Below, piece by piece: positions 1-7,128 of a stretch of DNA of 64,000 bases. Positions within the stretch are counted from its first letter, which is position 1. Each line of letters starts with the position of its first letter. Where the stretch lies: positions 1-64,000 of IMG/VR virus record IMGVR_UViG_3300006793_000021. One strand, written 5' to 3'. Source of the DNA: a virus. The translations under genes and the position numbers were made by a program. Under the pieces are notes generated by a model. That model was given only the letters and a program-made list of their open reading frames with translations. It was not told the origin of the DNA and did not search any database.

Positions 1-624
1 CCGCCACGTGAAAGCGTAGCAAACGAAGCACCTGTTGGACTACTAAAACAAGTAGGTCGTAAAATAGGAGCAAAAGTTGCTGGAGCAGTTGGTGCTAAAG
101 GTACAGCCGCTAAATTAAGTGGTGCGGCTGAAGTAGGTGACGAAGCAAGACAGTTAAAAGTAGCACTTCAAGGATATGCAGGTAAAACTGGTATAAACAT
201 AAAACAAATGCAAGGTCCACAACTTGCGGCATTTTTAAAATCAAAAGGTTATCCAAATATGCACCTTAAAGGTGTACAAGGCATAATGACGCCTAAACAA
301 ATAGATCAAGCAATAATGACTGCGGCGCAAGATGCCGCAAAAGCAGACGGTGACGGTACAGTAGGAACTAGTACTGCACCTGCACAACCTAGTGCGCCGG
401 CCGCAGGAGCGGCTAAAGGTACTAATGTAGCAGGAAAGCCTACTACAGCACAAGCACCACAAGTTGACAAAAACAAAGATGGCAAAGATGATGCTACAGG
501 TGAACCAATGGGTGCAAAAGTTATTCCAATGAAAAAGCCAGGTGCAGGTATTACTCCTGAAATGCAAAAACAATTAGATGCACTTACACCAACTGAGAAA
601 AAAGTACTGGCTGGAGCAATATAA
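1..624 (+). CDS. Ala/Gly/Lys-rich probable virion protein, 3' part
   Basis: The reading frame is open from base 1, so the gene begins upstream of the window and only the last 207 codons are seen. The visible part is rich in Ala, Gly, Lys and Pro. Its first half is compatible with a helical domain; from about residue 110 of the fragment it becomes a low-complexity Ala/Pro/Thr linker. The stop TAA overlaps the ATG of the next gene by one base, so the two are probably translationally coupled. I do not recognise a catalytic motif. Similar Ala-rich proteins lie near baseplate genes in marine T4-like phages (recalled, not searched), so a structural role is inferred. Function is uncertain. Confidence 0.7.
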   Translation, partial: PPRESVANEAPVGLLKQVGRKIGAKVAGAVGAKGTAAKLSGAAEVGDEARQLKVALQGYAGKTGINIKQMQGPQLAAFLKSKGYPNMHLKGVQGIMTPKQIDQAIMTAAQDAAKADGDGTVGTSTAPAQPSAPAAGAAKGTNVAGKPTTAQAPQVDKNKDGKDDATGEPMGAKVIPMKKPGAGITPEMQKQLDALTPTEKKVLAGAI

Positions 625-2720
625 TGAAACTACAAGAAGTAACAGGATTTAATTCACGTACAGCAACTATCCTTAACGAAGGATATCAAGATCTAACTGA
701 ACAACAAATACTTTATTTAGGCAAGTGGGAAAAAGAACTTTGGCCACTAGTTGAACAGTATACAAAATTAGCAGAACAAGAACTTACTAAGCAACAAGTA
801 TTAGACATCTTTAGCGGTGCTGAACAAGTTGCTATGGACAGCGGTGATAATAAAACAATCGCAGGTAAAGTAGGCGCAGGTGCGGCGGCTGCCGCTAAAC
901 TACCTGTTGATATTGCTAAAAAGGTTGATGCTAAAATTAACGAACTAGGCAGATTAGCACAAAATGCAGGTCCAGTTAAAAACGCAGATCAAAAGTTTGA
1001 AGATCTTAAAAAACAAATTACAGCAAACAACAGTGACAGTAAAATTGTACAAGGTATACAAAAAATAAGTGACTGGGCAAAAGAAAATCCAGGCAAAGCA
1101 AGTATAGCAGTTGGTGTTCTAACTACTATGGCGGCATTTGCAGGTGGTCCAGCAGGCGGTGCGGCCGCAGGTTTAATACTACGTGCATCTAAAGATTTAT
1201 TGCAAGGTGAAAAACTTTCAACAGCAGTTGGTAAGTCAGTTAAAACAGCGGCATATGGTGCTCTTGCTGGTTTAGCAATTAAAGGCTTAACTGATGGTAT
1301 GATTGATAACATTGCAACAGGTAGCGAAGCAGAAGCAGATGCAATGATGGACGGGTTTGCGGCAGATAACTTTAAATCAGCAGTAGACAGTGCGGCGGCA
1401 GATGCCGGATTTGATGCAGGTGTATTAGATGGTGCAATGGATTATAGTTCTACAGGTAATATTAATGGTTTCTATTACAATTATGATATGACTATGACTG
1501 CTGATCAAGTATCACAATATAAAACACTTGCAAGTGCGGCTTCAAGTGCAAAAGCATTTAGTCCTGAATATTATGAAGCGGCAGGCAAGTTACACGGATT
1601 TTTATCAACAACGCAAACAGCAAACGCAGATTTATCAGCACTGTCAGATACAATTAAAAACATTCCAAAAGAAGTGTGGACAGGCGATCAATTAGATGCG
1701 GCTATTGCTGTTCTTGACAATGCTGAAGAAGCAGTTCAAGCAGTATCAGCAGTTGGCGGCGCGGCAGGCGCGGCGGCACAAGGTGCTCTTGCAACAGTTG
1801 ATGACAAAAACAAAGAAATGCACAAAATTAAGCCAATTGATCCTGATGAAAAGAAACAACTTGAATTAGATCTCAAAGGCGGAAGCGATGCAACTCCAGT
1901 AGATAAAAACTTTGACAAAAGTCAAAAGTTAAGTGACTTTGGTAAAGTTGGCGAAACATTGTCAATGGAAGAAAAGTTTGAATTATATCTAGCAGAAGCA
2001 GATCCTGCACAAGGCGAATTACCTTTAAACAATCCTAATACACTAGGTGCTAAACTAAAACGTGGAGCAGGAAACTTAGCAGGTAAAGCCGCAGGCGCAG
2101 TAAAAGGTGCGGCAAGTTCAGCGGCAGGAGCAGTTAAACAAACTGCAAAAAATGTAGGTAATAAAGTTACTGCTGATAAACTTACTAAACAATGGACTAA
2201 GATGGGATCACCATTAGATTCAGGTAGTATTGCTAATATACTAGCAGATGCTGGTATGAGTAACGACCAAATACAAAGCATTGGATCAACACAAAAAGTA
2301 GAATTAGAACCATCTAAGCCTCAACAAGATCCTGAAACACAGCCAGATGCACCGAGTACGGATACAGCACAAAAAGGTGCGGATTCGGAACAACCAAGTG
2401 CTAAAACACCACCAGCAGTTAAAGATGCACCTATTAAAAAGGGTACTATAATGAACAAAGGTGGTAAAGATTACGAATGGGCAGGCGCACTATGGGTTGA
2501 CACACAAACAAATAAACCTGTTGGTGTACAAGCAAGTTTTGATATGGGATTACCGAATCCTAAATTTACTGCAATTCTTAAGGCTGTTAAAGCTGATCCA
2601 GAATTAGGAAAATTAGTAAAAGCACAACTTACTGCTAAAGGTGTAAAACCAGGTACTGCACAAGCAGGACAAGCGGCACAAGCAGGTGTTAAAGGAACTG
2701 AAAAACTTAAGACTGCTTAA
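624..2720 (+). CDS. 698-aa Ala/Gly-rich probable virion structural protein
   Basis: Starts at ATG 624 inside the TAA of the preceding gene. The N-terminal ~110 residues look helical and charged. Residues about 155-225 form a Gly/Ala-rich hydrophobic stretch that could be a membrane-active or self-associating helix pair. A long Ala/Gln-rich middle follows. The C-terminal ~100 residues contain a compact segment around KDYEWAGALWV. There is no signal peptide. The 3' end meets the minus-strand gp26 frameshift extension head-on, overlapping it by 4 bases (2717-2720). Context beside baseplate and tail genes suggests a virion or ejected internal protein, which is inference. No enzyme motif was found. 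Confidence 0.75.
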   Translation: MKLQEVTGFNSRTATILNEGYQDLTEQQILYLGKWEKELWPLVEQYTKLAEQELTKQQVLDIFSGAEQVAMDSGDNKTIAGKVGAGAAAAAKLPVDIAKKVDAKINELGRLAQNAGPVKNADQKFEDLKKQITANNSDSKIVQGIQKISDWAKENPGKASIAVGVLTTMAAFAGGPAGGAAAGLILRASKDLLQGEKLSTAVGKSVKTAAYGALAGLAIKGLTDGMIDNIATGSEAEADAMMDGFAADNFKSAVDSAAADAGFDAGVLDGAMDYSSTGNINGFYYNYDMTMTADQVSQYKTLASAASSAKAFSPEYYEAAGKLHGFLSTTQTANADLSALSDTIKNIPKEVWTGDQLDAAIAVLDNAEEAVQAVSAVGGAAGAAAQGALATVDDKNKEMHKIKPIDPDEKKQLELDLKGGSDATPVDKNFDKSQKLSDFGKVGETLSMEEKFELYLAEADPAQGELPLNNPNTLGAKLKRGAGNLAGKAAGAVKGAASSAAGAVKQTAKNVGNKVTADKLTKQWTKMGSPLDSGSIANILADAGMSNDQIQSIGSTQKVELEPSKPQQDPETQPDAPSTDTAQKGADSEQPSAKTPPAVKDAPIKKGTIMNKGGKDYEWAGALWVDTQTNKPVGVQASFDMGLPNPKFTAILKAVKADPELGKLVKAQLTAKGVKPGTAQAGQAAQAGVKGTEKLKTA

Positions 2721-2947
2721 AAATAAGGTAGTCCGCTTTTCTTTGTAGTTTCGAAATTGTCTTCAACCATTTTACCGATTATCTCTCGTTCTTCAGGACC
2801 GAGATAATAGGCTTCTTCGTAGGTTAGACCTCCACGCATTAACCAACACAATTTAGTAAGTTCTAATTTAAACTGTTTAGATTCTTGCTCAAGGACCTTA
2901 ACTTCTTCTAGGATCTCTGGGACGGTCCACGTCAGGATCCTTATTCG
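2717..2947 (-). CDS. -1 frame extension of gp26 (76 codons), probable frameshift product
   Basis: This is an open -1 frame that runs directly out of the 3' end of the gp26-like gene. From CGA at 2947-2945 to TAA at 2719-2717 it encodes 76 residues with clear protein character: a helical segment rich in Glu and Lys, then CWLMRGGLTYEEAYYLGPEE, and an end at SGLPYF. There is no ATG, GTG or TTG before the conserved-looking helical part. The only near-start codons are CTG 2935 and ACG 2932 behind AAGGA. With the slippery heptamer at 2953-2947 it is best read as the tail of a 367-aa gp26 fusion, analogous to lambda G/GT and P2 E/E' chaperones. A separately translated small protein with a non-canonical start is the alternative. 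Confidence 0.72.
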   Translation of the reverse strand, partial: RIRILTWTVPEILEEVKVLEQESKQFKLELTKLCWLMRGGLTYEEAYYLGPEEREIIGKMVEDNFETTKKSGLPYF

Positions 2948-2953
2948 AAAAAA
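2911..2953 (-). promoter_or_regulatory. Programmed -1 frameshift signal: slippery TTTTTTC plus stem-loop
   Basis: Read on the minus strand, gp26 codons AAT TTT TTC GAA TAA contain T_TTT_TTC at 2953-2947, a perfect X_XXY_YYZ heptamer in the correct frame. After a 6-nt spacer (GAATAA) comes a potential stem-loop: GGATCCTG (2940-2933) can pair with CAG, a bulged A and GATCC (2919-2911), and a small GGA/TCC hairpin can form in its loop. Heptamer, spacer and stem follow the canonical layout of bacterial and viral -1 sites. Slippage continues translation into the 76-codon frame ending at 2717. Confidence 0.72.
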
Positions 2954-3819
2954 TTCGACTGATCAAATGTAATTGGTACTTCGTAAGTTTCTGGAACACC
3001 TTGTAATTTTTCTTCGTCAGTTGCTTGTGCAATTAACGGCTTTAGTGTAAACTTTTCTTTTTCTGCTTCTAAGTGTGTTTGAATACTATTAAAAAATGTT
3101 TTATCTGCATTTTTAATAAAGTCAAGTATATGTGTTCTGTTAGTTACTAATACTGGATCATCATTTTCTTGTTGTATCTCAATACTTTTAATACCTTTAA
3201 CCATCATGTCTACAGTTAGTTCAGTAAGTTTTGCAAACGAGTTTGTAAATGCTTGAAGTTTATCTTCTTCTTTCATTGTATCGTCGTTAACAACATTAAA
3301 GATACGTTGTTCTTCAAATGTTTTTAAAGCACCGTCTGTAAATTCTCTGTAATTTAATGGACGTAAACGTATTGTCATTTCCGGTAGCATTACAACATCA
3401 TTATATTCAATATTAGCAAACTGATCTAATAATTGTCTTAGATCTACACCCATTTCTTTTTCTTCTCCTGTCACTGGAGTTTTAATTTTAAGTGTCATTT
3501 GTTCGCCGTATGTTGCAAGCCTAATAGCAATAAGACATACATCAAGATCTACACTAGGTAGTTTCCATGCATCTTTGATTGCAGGTATACAACTTTGAAT
3601 TACATCAACTGTTGCTTGTCCGTTAAGTAACGCATCAGGAGTTTTAAACAACAGCTCATCTTTTGCTGTCATTGAATAAACTTCAACTTCTCCGCTCTCT
3701 GGAAAGTCAATTGAACCTGCTGGATAGTGTTTTCCTTGGCTAGGAAGGCTAATATATAACTTAGATTGTCGAAAATACTTACTAAGTGGGTTTGTATCTG
3801 GTGATTTTATTTGTGACAT
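2941..3819 (-). CDS. 26: T4 gp26-like baseplate hub / tail assembly protein
   Basis: Predicted 292 aa. The start is taken as the ATG at 3819 (MSQIKSP) because GGAGAAAAC lies just upstream; an in-frame ATG at 3840 has no such site. The N-terminal region (KLYISLPSQGKHYPAG, with VYSMTAKDELLFKTPDALLNG downstream) is typical, from memory, of the T4 gp26 baseplate family, which resembles tail-assembly chaperones. In T4, gp26 takes part in assembling the central baseplate hub. The gene is divergent from the putative tape measure at 3898 and has its own late promoter box at 3870-3863. Its last codons carry the frameshift signal that would yield a longer minor product. Family assignment is from remembered similarity, without a search. 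Confidence 0.72.
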   Translation of the reverse strand: MSQIKSPDTNPLSKYFRQSKLYISLPSQGKHYPAGSIDFPESGEVEVYSMTAKDELLFKTPDALLNGQATVDVIQSCIPAIKDAWKLPSVDLDVCLIAIRLATYGEQMTLKIKTPVTGEEKEMGVDLRQLLDQFANIEYNDVVMLPEMTIRLRPLNYREFTDGALKTFEEQRIFNVVNDDTMKEEDKLQAFTNSFAKLTELTVDMMVKGIKSIEIQQENDDPVLVTNRTHILDFIKNADKTFFNSIQTHLEAEKEKFTLKPLIAQATDEEKLQGVPETYEVPITFDQSNFFE

Positions 3820-3829
3820 GTTTTCTCCG

Positions 3830-3837
3830 TATAAATA
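3830..3837 (+). promoter_or_regulatory. T4-type late promoter box for the tape-measure gene
   Basis: TATAAATA followed by C is an exact match to the T4 late -10 box. Transcription would begin near 3843, about 55 nt before the ATG at 3898. It faces the minus-strand box at 3870-3863, so the two transcripts would overlap at their 5' ends. Confidence 0.75.
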
Positions 3838-3862
3838 CATTATTAGTTGTATGTATCTACTT

Positions 3863-3897: not shown

Positions 3898-6800
3898 ATG
3901 GCCGAAGAAGTAAAAATTGTTGACGTTGCCGGCGGACCTGCCGCAGAAGCTACATTACAAGAAATATTAAAGATAATGAAGCGCGGAGGCCAATCTGGGT
4001 CTGGCGGCAGTGGCGGCGGTGCAAAAGCACAAGACCTGTACACAAAAGCAGTAACACGTGGTACAACAACTACTAAAAAACAAACAGCAGAAGTCAAAAA
4101 AAGCACTAGTGCATTAAAATCGTTTAGTAGCGGTCTTAACTCAACTTTAGGTTTTGCATTTAAAGCACTAGGATCAGTACTAGGTGCTACCACAGGACAA
4201 CTAACAAATTTTGCTGGCGCAGTACAAAATAGTAATAGTGTTACTGAGTTTCTTAGTCAAGTACCTATATTAGGCTCAGCACTTGGAAAAGCAAGTGCTT
4301 ACTTTGATAAAAGTCTAGCAACTTTCCAACAGTTAAGTGAATCAGGTGCTGGATTTGGTAACAATATGTTAGCAATGCGACAAGCATCAGCAGAAGCAGG
4401 TCTTAGTTTAGACCAATTTGCAGATATGGTTTCAGCAAACTCAGCTAACATGACTTTGTTAGGTGGCACAGTTACAGGTGGTGCACAGCGTTTAGGTAAA
4501 TTAACCAAATCACTTAGAAGTGTAGAAAACGGTATGTTTGGTTTAGGTTTCACACAAGAGTCATTAAATGAAGGCATGGCTGATTATATTGAAAACCAAG
4601 CAAGAGCAGGACAACTTAGAGGAAGAACAGATGCATCATTAACAGCTGGTGCTAAAAGTTATCTGTTAGAAATAGACAAACTTGCAAAAGTTACTGGTAA
4701 AAGTAGAAAACAATTACAAGAAGAAATAAACGGCAGAATGGAAGCGGCAAATATCAACGTGCTTGCTTCTAAATTAAGTGGCAAAGGATTAGAAAACTTC
4801 CAAAACAACTTACAATTTTCTTCTGATATTATGGGCAAGTCAGGACCAGCATTTAGTGATGCATTAGGTGATATGGCTGACGGTGTTTCTCAAACACCAC
4901 TAGCACAATATTTAGAAGCAAACGTATCCGGTCTAAAAGAACTACAAGTAGCAAACGCAACAGGAGCAATTAGTCAAGAAGAATATAAAGCTCGTCTAAT
5001 GAAGATGCTTCCAGAGATTACTAAATTAGCAGATACTATGGGTGCGGCAGGTACATCAGCATTGGCCCAAACTGAAGGCATGGGAGAGTTTGTACAAATG
5101 ACTGCTGATGCTAGGACAGCAGGTCAACGTGAAATAGATATGAGAAAAGCCGCGGCTGAACAACAGAAAAAAGATTCTGTTACTGATGTGTTCGCTAAGT
5201 TTAAACAAACTATACAAACTATTAGAAGTAACATTGAAGAAGCATTACTTAAATCAGGCGTAATGGACACACTAGGTACTGCATTATCAGGTATAAGCAA
5301 TACACTTATAGAAGTTACTAAAGGAATTACTGAAAATCTAGTAAGATATCTTAAGAGTGATCAGTTTAAAGCAGACGTTGAAAACTTTAAACAAAAAATA
5401 GTACAAATGGCCGTAAAAGCACAAAGCATGGTCAAATATTTAAGATCAGAAGAGTTTAAGAAAAAGTTTGATGACTTTATGGCAAAAATCGGCGAAGGTG
5501 TAACTTCAATTAAGGCGTTTGTTGCTGATGTTACAAACTTAGGATTGAACGAAGCTATTGCAAAAGCACTAGGTGGTGCTGAAGGTCAAACCATCGGTGA
5601 TGTTGTTAAAGATAAATTTAGCGAAATGATCGGCGGCATTGATTTTTCAGGCATTGCTGTAAAGTTAGGACTTGCTATTACTGGACTGTTCGTAGGTGCA
5701 AAAGTTATTGGCGCAATGAAAAGCGGTATTGGCAGTATGTTTGGCGGATTATTTGGCGGTACCAAAGGAGGTGCTGTTAAAGGTCCAGCAGGTGCAGGCA
5801 AAGCAGGTAAAGGTGTTGGAGACTTTGTTGGCAATGTAGGCGGTGGTGTTCTCAAAGGTGTTGCTAAAGGATTAGCGGCATTTGGCAATCCACAAGTAGC
5901 AATAGGTGGCGCAGTACTAGCAGGAGTTATTCTTGTTATTGGTGCGGCAGTTGCAGGTGCTACGTGGTTAGTAGGTAAATCATTACCAACGTTTGCAGAC
6001 GGCATGAAGTCCTTTGAAGATATAGATGGTGCTAAACTTTCGGCGGCAGGAAAAGGTATGCTTGCAGTTGCAGGAGGCATGGCGGCATTTGGTGCAGGTA
6101 CAGCAGTTGCAGGATTAGGAAACTTAGTAGGCGGAATAGCAGATGGCATTGGTGCATTGTTTGGTGCTGAAAAAGCAAATCCATTAGAACAGTTATTAGA
6201 ATTTCAAAAATACACAATCGACGAAGCAAAAGTCAAAGGCAATGCAAATGCACTAGTTGCATATTCAACTGCAATGGCCGCATATGGCGGTGGTACAGCG
6301 GCAAGTGGATTAGGTTCATTAGTAAGTGGAATAGCAACAGGTATTACATCGTTCTTTGGCGGTGAAACTGGCATACCATATGATGATATAATTAAATTCC
6401 AAGGTTATGCTTTTGATACAGAAAAAGTAAAAGCAAATGCGGCCGCAATGGTAGCATTTAACGAAGCATTAACTTCTAGCTCGGGTGCAGGCGCAAAAAG
6501 CGGTGTAGGAAATGCAGTTGGAGCAATTGGCAATGCTATTGCAGGATTCTTTGGAGCTAAAACACCATTTGATAAAGTAAAAGATTTTGGAGCATTAGAA
6601 TTAAATGCTGAAGGCGTTAAAACAAATGCTGAAGCAATGGTTCATATGGCAAATGCTCTAAACTCATTTACAAGTGGAGAAGCAGGCGAGATTGAAATCT
6701 CTAAAAAAACTGTTACATCATTAGAACGTTTAGCAGGAATGGATAGCACAGGTATTGCTACATTATCTACTAATTTACAAAGTATGGCCGCAATGACAGG

Positions 6801-7128
6801 CTTAGACGCGAATATTACTTCACTCAATTCGCTTGACACAGAGAGCATAACCAGTTATAATACAGCAATGAAAGAATTAGTTGAAGTATTAGGCGAATTA
6901 AATGATGAACTTGCCAAAGATAATAAACTTGGGTTTGGCTCAGGAACTAATGCAGGTGATGTTGTAGCTAAAATGGACACAATAGGCGGCGGCGGATCCG
7001 GCACTGGTAGCTCAGAACAACTAGATCGGTTAAATATGTTAGTTGCTTCGTTATCTGAAATAATGAGAGAAGTAAGTACAAATACCAAAGCGACTGCTAC
7101 TAATACTAGTGGAAACATTTACGGTTAG
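3898..7128 (+). CDS. Putative tail tape-measure / large tail protein (1076 aa)
   Basis: Long Ala/Gly-rich protein with a helical N-terminal half, including a Gly-Ser-Gly linker near residue 35. A strongly hydrophobic stretch lies at about residues 665-695. The C-terminal part (about 700-950) carries three or four degenerate repeats of ~75-80 residues, each with an ANA.V.Y..AMAAYGGG-like helix and a glycine-rich SLVSGIATGI helix. Length, hydrophobic segments and position beside the gp26-like chaperone gene fit a tape measure that sets tail length, the role of T4 gp29. There is no good ribosome-binding site beyond a weak GGAA. A different large virion protein is possible. Confidence 0.6.
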   Translation: MAEEVKIVDVAGGPAAEATLQEILKIMKRGGQSGSGGSGGGAKAQDLYTKAVTRGTTTTKKQTAEVKKSTSALKSFSSGLNSTLGFAFKALGSVLGATTGQLTNFAGAVQNSNSVTEFLSQVPILGSALGKASAYFDKSLATFQQLSESGAGFGNNMLAMRQASAEAGLSLDQFADMVSANSANMTLLGGTVTGGAQRLGKLTKSLRSVENGMFGLGFTQESLNEGMADYIENQARAGQLRGRTDASLTAGAKSYLLEIDKLAKVTGKSRKQLQEEINGRMEAANINVLASKLSGKGLENFQNNLQFSSDIMGKSGPAFSDALGDMADGVSQTPLAQYLEANVSGLKELQVANATGAISQEEYKARLMKMLPEITKLADTMGAAGTSALAQTEGMGEFVQMTADARTAGQREIDMRKAAAEQQKKDSVTDVFAKFKQTIQTIRSNIEEALLKSGVMDTLGTALSGISNTLIEVTKGITENLVRYLKSDQFKADVENFKQKIVQMAVKAQSMVKYLRSEEFKKKFDDFMAKIGEGVTSIKAFVADVTNLGLNEAIAKALGGAEGQTIGDVVKDKFSEMIGGIDFSGIAVKLGLAITGLFVGAKVIGAMKSGIGSMFGGLFGGTKGGAVKGPAGAGKAGKGVGDFVGNVGGGVLKGVAKGLAAFGNPQVAIGGAVLAGVILVIGAAVAGATWLVGKSLPTFADGMKSFEDIDGAKLSAAGKGMLAVAGGMAAFGAGTAVAGLGNLVGGIADGIGALFGAEKANPLEQLLEFQKYTIDEAKVKGNANALVAYSTAMAAYGGGTAASGLGSLVSGIATGITSFFGGETGIPYDDIIKFQGYAFDTEKVKANAAAMVAFNEALTSSSGAGAKSGVGNAVGAIGNAIAGFFGAKTPFDKVKDFGALELNAEGVKTNAEAMVHMANALNSFTSGEAGEIEISKKTVTSLERLAGMDSTGIATLSTNLQSMAAMTGLDANITSLNSLDTESITSYNTAMKELVEVLGELNDELAKDNKLGFGSGTNAGDVVAKMDTIGGGGSGTGSSEQLDRLNMLVASLSEIMREVSTNTKATATNTSGNIYG

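Follow-up and report, generated by a model that had tools for sequence, protein, structure and literature searches.

A candidate -1 programmed frameshift at the end of a gp26-like gene in a viral DNA record, and its counterparts in T4-related phages

According to a 2016 review, long-tailed phages obey a G-T frameshift rule, and T4 is the exception (PMC5009743). Vladimirov 2022 is cited for poly-T slippery sequences in the genes for the short tail-assembly chaperone (TAC-N) of T4-like phages (PMC12846349), and Vladimirov et al. are reported to have found that some T4-like phages do without frameshifting and encode the short protein and the longer fusion in separate genes (PMC10885494). From these two citing papers, the frameshift mechanism is already described for T4-like phages. 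We analyzed a window, meaning the whole stretch of 64,000 nucleotides at positions 1 to 64,000 of the IMG/VR virus record IMGVR_UViG_3300006793_000021, in which a gene resembling T4 gene 26 lies on the minus strand and is followed by a second reading frame. On comparative grounds we estimate at roughly 87% the probability that a -1 programmed frameshift at the end of this gp26-like gene yields a short and a long tail-assembly chaperone (TAC-N and TAC-NC) from one start. The junction in the window consists of the following features.

2941..3840, minus strand: gp26-like gene, zero frame, the putative short form (TAC-N); PF12322 T4_baseplate E 9.9e-11, phrog_150 baseplate hub E 8.7e-15
2947..2953, minus strand: slippery heptamer T_TTT_TTC, with TTT in the P site and TTC in the A site; identified from sequence and conservation
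2941..2943, minus strand: zero-frame stop TAA, end of the short form; read from the sequence
2717..2946, minus strand: -1 frame C-domain (TAC-C), 76 codons past the two Phe, with its stop TAA at 2719-2717; identified from homologues, substitution pattern and a helical model

The last zero-frame codons of the gp26-like gene are AAT TTT TTC GAA TAA, so that the heptamer is in frame and upstream of the stop, and a 6-nucleotide spacer, GAATAA (2946-2941), separates it from GGATCC, which starts at 2940. From three codons 5' of the heptamer onward, the -1 frame meets no stop until 2719-2717; counted from the heptamer, it is open for 78 codons. No ATG, GTG or TTG was found in the window before or near the start of the C-domain; the earliest in this frame are TTG 2851 and then ATG 2839, both within the conserved domain. 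This frameshift layout is directly observed. An earlier note on this DNA had described an in-frame heptamer, a 6-nucleotide spacer and a 76-codon -1 frame of protein character with no normal start codon; each of these was seen in the sequence, the domain is conserved, and the first candidate start falls inside it. The gp26-like product has 299 residues if read from ATG 3840 and 292 if read from ATG 3819, and the latter, which stands behind GGAG, is probably the start. The end of the -1 frame overlaps (2717-2720) the end of a convergent 698-residue gene (624-2720, plus strand), for which Pfam and PHROGs gave no convincing family match.

Relatives were selected with the gp26-like gene alone, as the best 80 of 304 IMG/VR loci and as 13 named phages fetched out of 72 matching records and picked by eye for lineage spread. 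With the -1 frame as a tblastn query, three jumbo-phage records were matched, two of them from the same Agrobacterium phage, and the C-domain of the window was about one-third identical to those of the Agrobacterium and Sinorhizobium jumbo phages; Atu_ph07 and Phosso entered the sample by this C-domain match and not by gp26. An IMG/VR scan gave 28 loci that match the -1 frame C-domain with 45-100% identity. Two further IMG/VR sets were taken, the best 80 of at least 600 loci related to Microcystis phage Mel-JY01 and the best 80 of at least 598 loci of a cyanophage type, from which 4 and 1 loci close to a contig end were left out of the junction survey. Because certain IMG/VR contigs were sampled twice, heptamers were counted on distinct junctions. 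Three alignments were used: A1, the window with 43 of 55 dereplicated loci; A2, the window with 49 of 50 loci; and A3, 20 close relatives chosen by eye.

A C-domain open reading frame (ORF) lies beside the gp26 ORF in 122 of 124 sequences, the window included, 121 times in the -1 frame and once, in Mel-JY01, in the +1 frame; the two sequences that have none (L046 and L095) stop with the contig at the gp26 gene and were dropped from the junction counts. The heptamer T_TTT_TTC was found in 89 of 91 distinct junctions, T_TTT_TTT in one (XacN1) and neither in one (Mel-JY01). Within the gp26-only IMG/VR set, every locus uncut by a contig end (78/78) carries the domain in the -1 frame, as do 12 of the 13 named gp26 relatives. 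Eleven of these 12 have T_TTT_TTC, namely PA5oct, CBB, XaC1, GAP32, Serratia BF, PBECO4, RaK2, Munch, Vibrio 2.275.O, SCTP-2 and Kaldavass, the C-domain match of XaC1 being weak (E 0.017), and XacN1 has T_TTT_TTT. Atu_ph07 and Phosso, selected by the C-domain, likewise carry T_TTT_TTC, and the cyanophage-type group showed T_TTT_TTC together with a -1 C-domain in 75 of 75 distinct IMG/VR junctions. XacN1 is the sole -1-type junction with T_TTT_TTT, and its site lies 37 nucleotides ahead of the gp26 stop. The heptamer put forward in the earlier note is therefore kept in nearly all of these relatives. Relatives that encode the small protein from an ATG of its own and lack the heptamer, which in that note would have spoken against frameshifting, were not seen among the 91 junctions; the sole junction without any heptamer, that of Mel-JY01, belongs to the +1 type, with two TTG ahead of the C-domain as its first listed start codons. 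An indel from assembly or sequencing at the T run, also raised there, was rejected as very unlikely, since the same junction occurs on other contigs.

The -1 frame has no stop in any of 75 distinct ungapped alleles, whereas each of the other frames has a stop in all 75. Across 251 allele pairs less than 35% different, differences were distributed over the three -1-frame codon positions as 3776/2105/7290, and 67.6% of single-change codons were synonymous in the -1 frame, compared with 21.1% for random changes; the same pairs read in the zero and +1 frames gave 13.7% and 10.7%, against 17.3% and 19.2% at random (here and in the codon counts below, alleles were treated as independent and relatedness was ignored). 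A frame open by chance was ruled out by the stop-free -1 frame and this substitution pattern. Judged by its manner of change, the -1 frame of the window is a conserved protein-coding domain.

In the mechanism that we propose, most ribosomes would read the gp26-like gene to its TAA and make the short form, TAC-N. A minority would slip back by one base with tRNA-Phe on the TTT and TTC of T_TTT_TTC and continue in the -1 frame, adding the 76-residue helical C-domain to give the long form, TAC-NC. The two would then, by analogy, act like lambda gpG/gpGT: the tape measure protein would be coated by many short and few long copies, the C-domain would recruit subunits of the tail tube, the tube would thereby polymerise to a set length, and both chaperone forms would leave. 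What carries this proposal is read from the sequences themselves: the heptamer and its conservation, the coding -1 frame, the missing usual start (in the window and 54 of 89 alleles), the family to which each half belongs and the gene order in distant relatives. The layout of the lambda G/GT-type tail chaperones, which the earlier note had recognised here, thus holds on comparative evidence.

We next consider the family to which the two halves belong. The gp26-like protein of the window scored 42.2 bits to PF12322 (curated cut-off, 24.5), and all 44 members of alignment A1 matched this family at E 0.001; together with phrog_150, these matches bear out the identification of the gene as gp26. 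The C-domain of the window matched no Pfam or PHROGs family, its lone Pfam match (E 0.17) failing the cut-off of that family. PF12322 spans nearly the whole length of T4 gp26 and also residues 1-201 of the 249 of T4 gp51. T4 reportedly uses both genes 26 and 51, and the abstract of Vladimirov 2022 is said to state that frameshifting was kept in several T4-like groups. A search of 21 records gave two PF12322 genes for T4, a single one for each of 17 (the partial record of the window included) and none at threshold for three (Mel-JY01, SCTP-2 and immuto). Cyanophage S-CAM1 has one PF12322 gene, whose junction carries T_TTT_TTC ahead of a C-domain in the -1 frame. When built from cyanophage-type C-domains, a profile scored residues 200-244 of T4 gp51 (whole protein, E 1.5e-5), just past the PF12322 part, and placed 10 of 11 gp51 sequences above all shuffled and unrelated decoys. 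Single-pair hhalign comparisons of C-domains gave E 1e-7 between the window type and the +1 type, 4e-7 between the +1 type and the cyanophage type, and 2.9e-7 between the cyanophage type and T4-type gp51, the +1-type profile having been built without SP-15 and RM378.

Weighing against a direct relation, the window type matched the cyanophage type only at E 0.0013 and gp51 at 0.058, the +1 type matched gp51 at 0.44, and the window-type C-domain scored the C-terminus of gp51 with only 4.4 bits. Because these direct matches are weak, the link to T4 runs through intermediates. On the gp26 side, hhalign gave no link between the gp26 profile and the single T4 gp26 or gp51 sequences; the Pfam profile gives it. 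T4 gene 26 ends with GAG TTC TTT GAG TTA CTA TAA, which keeps Phe-Phe and has no slippery heptamer. Past its stop, the -1 frame of T4 gene 26 is open for 398 nucleotides, where gene 25 lies. From the counts of one versus two genes, the likeness of the gp51 C-terminus and the absence of the heptamer from gene 26, one frameshifted gene in these phages appears to do what two genes do in T4. The earlier note had remarked that T4 gp26 is not known to be frameshifted, which agrees with the heptamer-less gene 26 and the second PF12322 gene, 51; its proposed link of the T4 gp26 family to the frameshifted tail chaperones likewise stands on comparative evidence, such frameshifting being already in print for T4-like phages.

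The function of the pair is weighed with gene order and structure. Two phages of the +1 type, Bacillus phage SP-15 and Flavobacterium phage immuto, have these genes arranged as sheath, tube, gp26-like gene, small ORF and annotated tape measure. A chaperone between sheath/tube and tape measure has the position known from lambda-type phages. In the window no tube gene was located, and the neighbour of the gp26-like gene is as follows.

3898..7128, plus strand: divergent neighbour of 1076 residues, putative tape measure protein; phrog_14121 virion structural protein E 2.3e-6

Of 112 loci that extend at least 1 kb upstream of gp26 (a count that includes the window and repeated contigs), 104 have a homologue of this neighbour in that stretch, on the other strand, and in the RaK2 record the counterpart is noted for its similarity to a tape measure protein. 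The models have a mean pLDDT (predicted local distance difference test) of 89.8 for gp26 and 83.1 for the C-domain, which is modelled as all-helical. The C-domain model had no match at E 0.001 in the PDB or among viral structures, and a sequence search of solved structures gave no match for either the gp26-like part or the C-domain.

It is possible that the -1 frameshift is real but yields no chaperone pair, with gp26 as part of the hub and the long form as a minor structural protein. The names of the families, base plate for PF12322 and baseplate hub for phrog_150, favor this, as does the CBB record, which calls its copy a structural protein. Several further observations tell against a chaperone pair beside its tape measure. 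Genetic work puts gp26 in the hub (cited in PMC3004832). Foldseek of the gp26 model returned no chaperone at E 0.001, and the HK97 tail assembly chaperone 2ob9 ranked 18th against it, with Z 5.8, a root mean square deviation of 4.7 and 100 of 107 residues aligned, below the safe level of the tool. The putative tape measure of the window is adjacent but divergent and not downstream of the gp26-like gene, 7 of 15 named phages have no homologue of it upstream of gp26, and the tape measure of Atu_ph07 was named gp701 by its authors and is not beside gp686 (PMC6102473). The earlier claim of a divergent putative tape measure beside the gene holds for the window in adjacency and direction, but does not extend to those seven phages. 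The tube, gp26-like gene and tape measure order in SP-15 and immuto nevertheless argues against a purely structural role, as do the architecture of a short and long pair and a gp51 relative, H153, annotated as 'tape measure protein assembly chaperone'. Further, T4 gp51 is required yet absent from the particle, and it is named, like gp26, among the chaperones of hub assembly (PMC3004832). Taken together, we consider a purely structural pair unlikely, and the production of two chaperone forms remains the reading that we prefer.

Alternatively, the C-domain could be a separate small protein with its own start, whether ribosomes reinitiate at the overlapping stop or begin at a non-AUG codon, the T run being incidental. 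T4 gene 26' reportedly starts at AUU, a precedent for a non-AUG start, and most named records annotate a separate small gene at this place. Start codons near the junction were counted in 89 distinct window-type alleles: in 54, no ATG, GTG or TTG lies upstream of the junction or within 8 codons of it, and the other alleles divide into 19 with GTG or TTG only and 16 with an ATG. In the cyanophage type, an ATG is nearby in 50 of 76 alleles. Own initiation is possible at these ATG-bearing junctions, which weighs against frameshifting there, and ATGA was seen at the junction of L001 and L002. Initiation at a usual start codon is, as far as the codons themselves tell, unavailable in the window and in the 54 alleles and possible in the remainder, and in PA5oct no ATG, GTG or TTG was found anywhere in the open -1 frame. 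The heptamer, however, is present in 89 of 91 junctions whether an ATG is nearby or not, and T4-type gp51 has the C-domain fused to its gp26-like part. We regard a separately initiated protein as somewhat less probable still than a structural pair, and return to the -1 frameshift.

The codon before Phe-Phe ends in T in all 89 heptamer alleles, although codon usage would give 62%, and seven codons are used there (AAT, GAT, ACT, AGT, CAT, CGT and TAT). All 89 of these alleles encode the Phe pair as TTT and then TTC, even though 81% of the Phe codons in these genes (828/1018) are TTT; given x-Phe-Phe, T_TTT_TTC would arise from codon usage at about 9% per allele, with relatedness ignored. By these counts, the synonymous choice in the heptamer is fixed against codon usage. 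Slippage of RNA polymerase on the T run, by which a share of mRNAs would gain one U, would suit the conserved run of six T and also T_TTT_TTT in XacN1, but is the least probable alternative, because six T before a C make a short run compared with known polymerase slippage sites, and the run ends in TTC, not the commoner TTT, in 89 of 89 alleles, as befits tandem tRNA slippage and not a longer homopolymer.

Downstream of the heptamer, two candidate stems share a 5' arm.

2910..2941, minus strand: possible stem of AGGATC (2941-2936) with GATCCT (2915-2910); pairing in close relatives, weak z-scores in the window
2941-2931 with 2902-2892, minus strand: competing stem with the shared 5' arm; pairing in close relatives

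Among 19 distinct close relatives, 93.0% of cells are paired in the AGGATC/GATCCT stem (slid versions, 22-53%), a level reached by 21 of 500 shuffles; for the competing stem the values are 88.9% in the same 19 (slid, 22-50%) and 6 of 500. In both stems the arms are coding and most pairs hardly vary. The mean z of the fold was -1.28 over 81 alleles (22 below -2), compared with -0.52 over 84 control stretches (10 below -2), and -1.67 over 74 cyanophage-type alleles (30 below -2). Against a stem, the fold downstream of the heptamer in the window was no better than dinucleotide shuffles (z 0.11 for 74 nucleotides and -1.00 for the 60 nucleotides after the heptamer), and no unbulged helix of 6-10 pairs with more than 71% of cells paired was found at a common position across the family (68 ungapped alleles). 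These data make a stimulatory structure plausible, and the two stems compete for that role. The stem-loop of the earlier note is weakly supported, by the pairing kept in close relatives, but neither by the fold of the window nor by a stem kept across the family.

The junctions related to Mel-JY01 differ in the direction of the frame. Past the gp26 stop, 60 of 62 distinct junctions have +1 as their longest open frame, and in the other two the +1 frame is also open for more than 190 nucleotides. Among the 60 distinct 30-mers that 76 loci provided, 54 keep the DNA TTTTTTTGGCCT, and in the motif TTT TTT TGG CCT the codon CCT is kept though CCA is the commoner Pro codon (460 vs 291). Differences between 285 pairs of exact-motif alleles fell on the +1-frame codon positions as 2550/1415/6492. 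Immuto carries CTT_TGG at the junction, which resembles the CUU_U +1 site of RF2. The loci of this group are L140-L219, L121, L128 and L129. These data suggest +1 (or -2) recoding at TTT_TTT_TGG in the same gene family. A -2 slip, which leads to the same frame as +1, is possible, and so is independent initiation, an ATG being nearby in 27 of 59 distinct alleles (23 have no start codon near the junction and 9 only GTG or TTG). If +1 recoding is accepted, the long form would be made in three ways in one family: by -1 shift at T_TTT_TTC (the window, jumbo phages and cyanophages), by +1 shift at TTT_TTT_TGG (Mel-JY01 and its relatives, immuto, and perhaps RM378 and SP-15) and by two separate genes (T4 26 and 51). 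We incline, at little better than even odds, to this view, in which the direction of recoding switched in evolution at the same Phe-Phe while the C-domain was kept.

The domain is easily missed in annotation. No gene is called at the C-domain in the records of PA5oct (L112), RaK2 (L118) and S-CAM1 (L126), other named records have a separate or shortened hypothetical gene there, that of Atu_ph07 (L001) being shorter and from an internal start, and no joined coding sequence across the junction was present in the PA5oct, RaK2, S-CAM1 and Atu_ph07 stretches. The word 'frameshift' has no occurrence in the main texts on CBB (PMC5259590), MIJ3 (PMC6892783) and Atu_ph07 (PMC6102473), which does not prove that these sites have gone unreported. 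To the mechanism already described, the present analysis adds the breadth and near-invariance of T_TTT_TTC in a marine and jumbo lineage as well as the +1 group; it also shows that named records miss the C-domain, and it tests the gp51 link independently. The layout of the G-T rule, with an almost invariant signal, is thus present in T4-related lineages whose examined records miss it, and the T_TTT_TTC junction offers a cheap annotation rule. These phages also form a natural set for testing the effect of the short-to-long ratio on tail assembly, and the +1 sister group, if confirmed, would allow tests of whether recoding has changed direction inside a single gene family.

Lambda uses another heptamer and has its tape measure on the same strand, whereas the putative tape measure of the window is divergent. 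In layout, lambda gpG/gpGT is otherwise like the window: a -1 shift, proposed in the window, falls close to where the short gene ends, the long form has a C-domain, and the place is among tail assembly genes (PMC5009743). In the halophage HSTV-2, an archaeal myovirus, the counterpart product arises very likely by +1 frameshifting (PMC5009743), a likeness to the +1-type sister group by description. The Vandenendeviridae phage Adele shares with the window a poly-T motif and a -1 C-domain annotated elsewhere as a separate hypothetical protein, but its motif is GTTTTT, not T_TTT_TTC, and other phage families are concerned (PMC12846349). The T4-like phages of Vladimirov 2022, as cited, have the pair predicted for the window, a short chaperone and a long form with an added C-domain. 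T4 itself shares PF12322 with the window, and the C-terminus of its gp51 is related to the frameshifted C-domain of cyanophages; it differs in having two genes of the family, of which gene 26 is heptamer-less.

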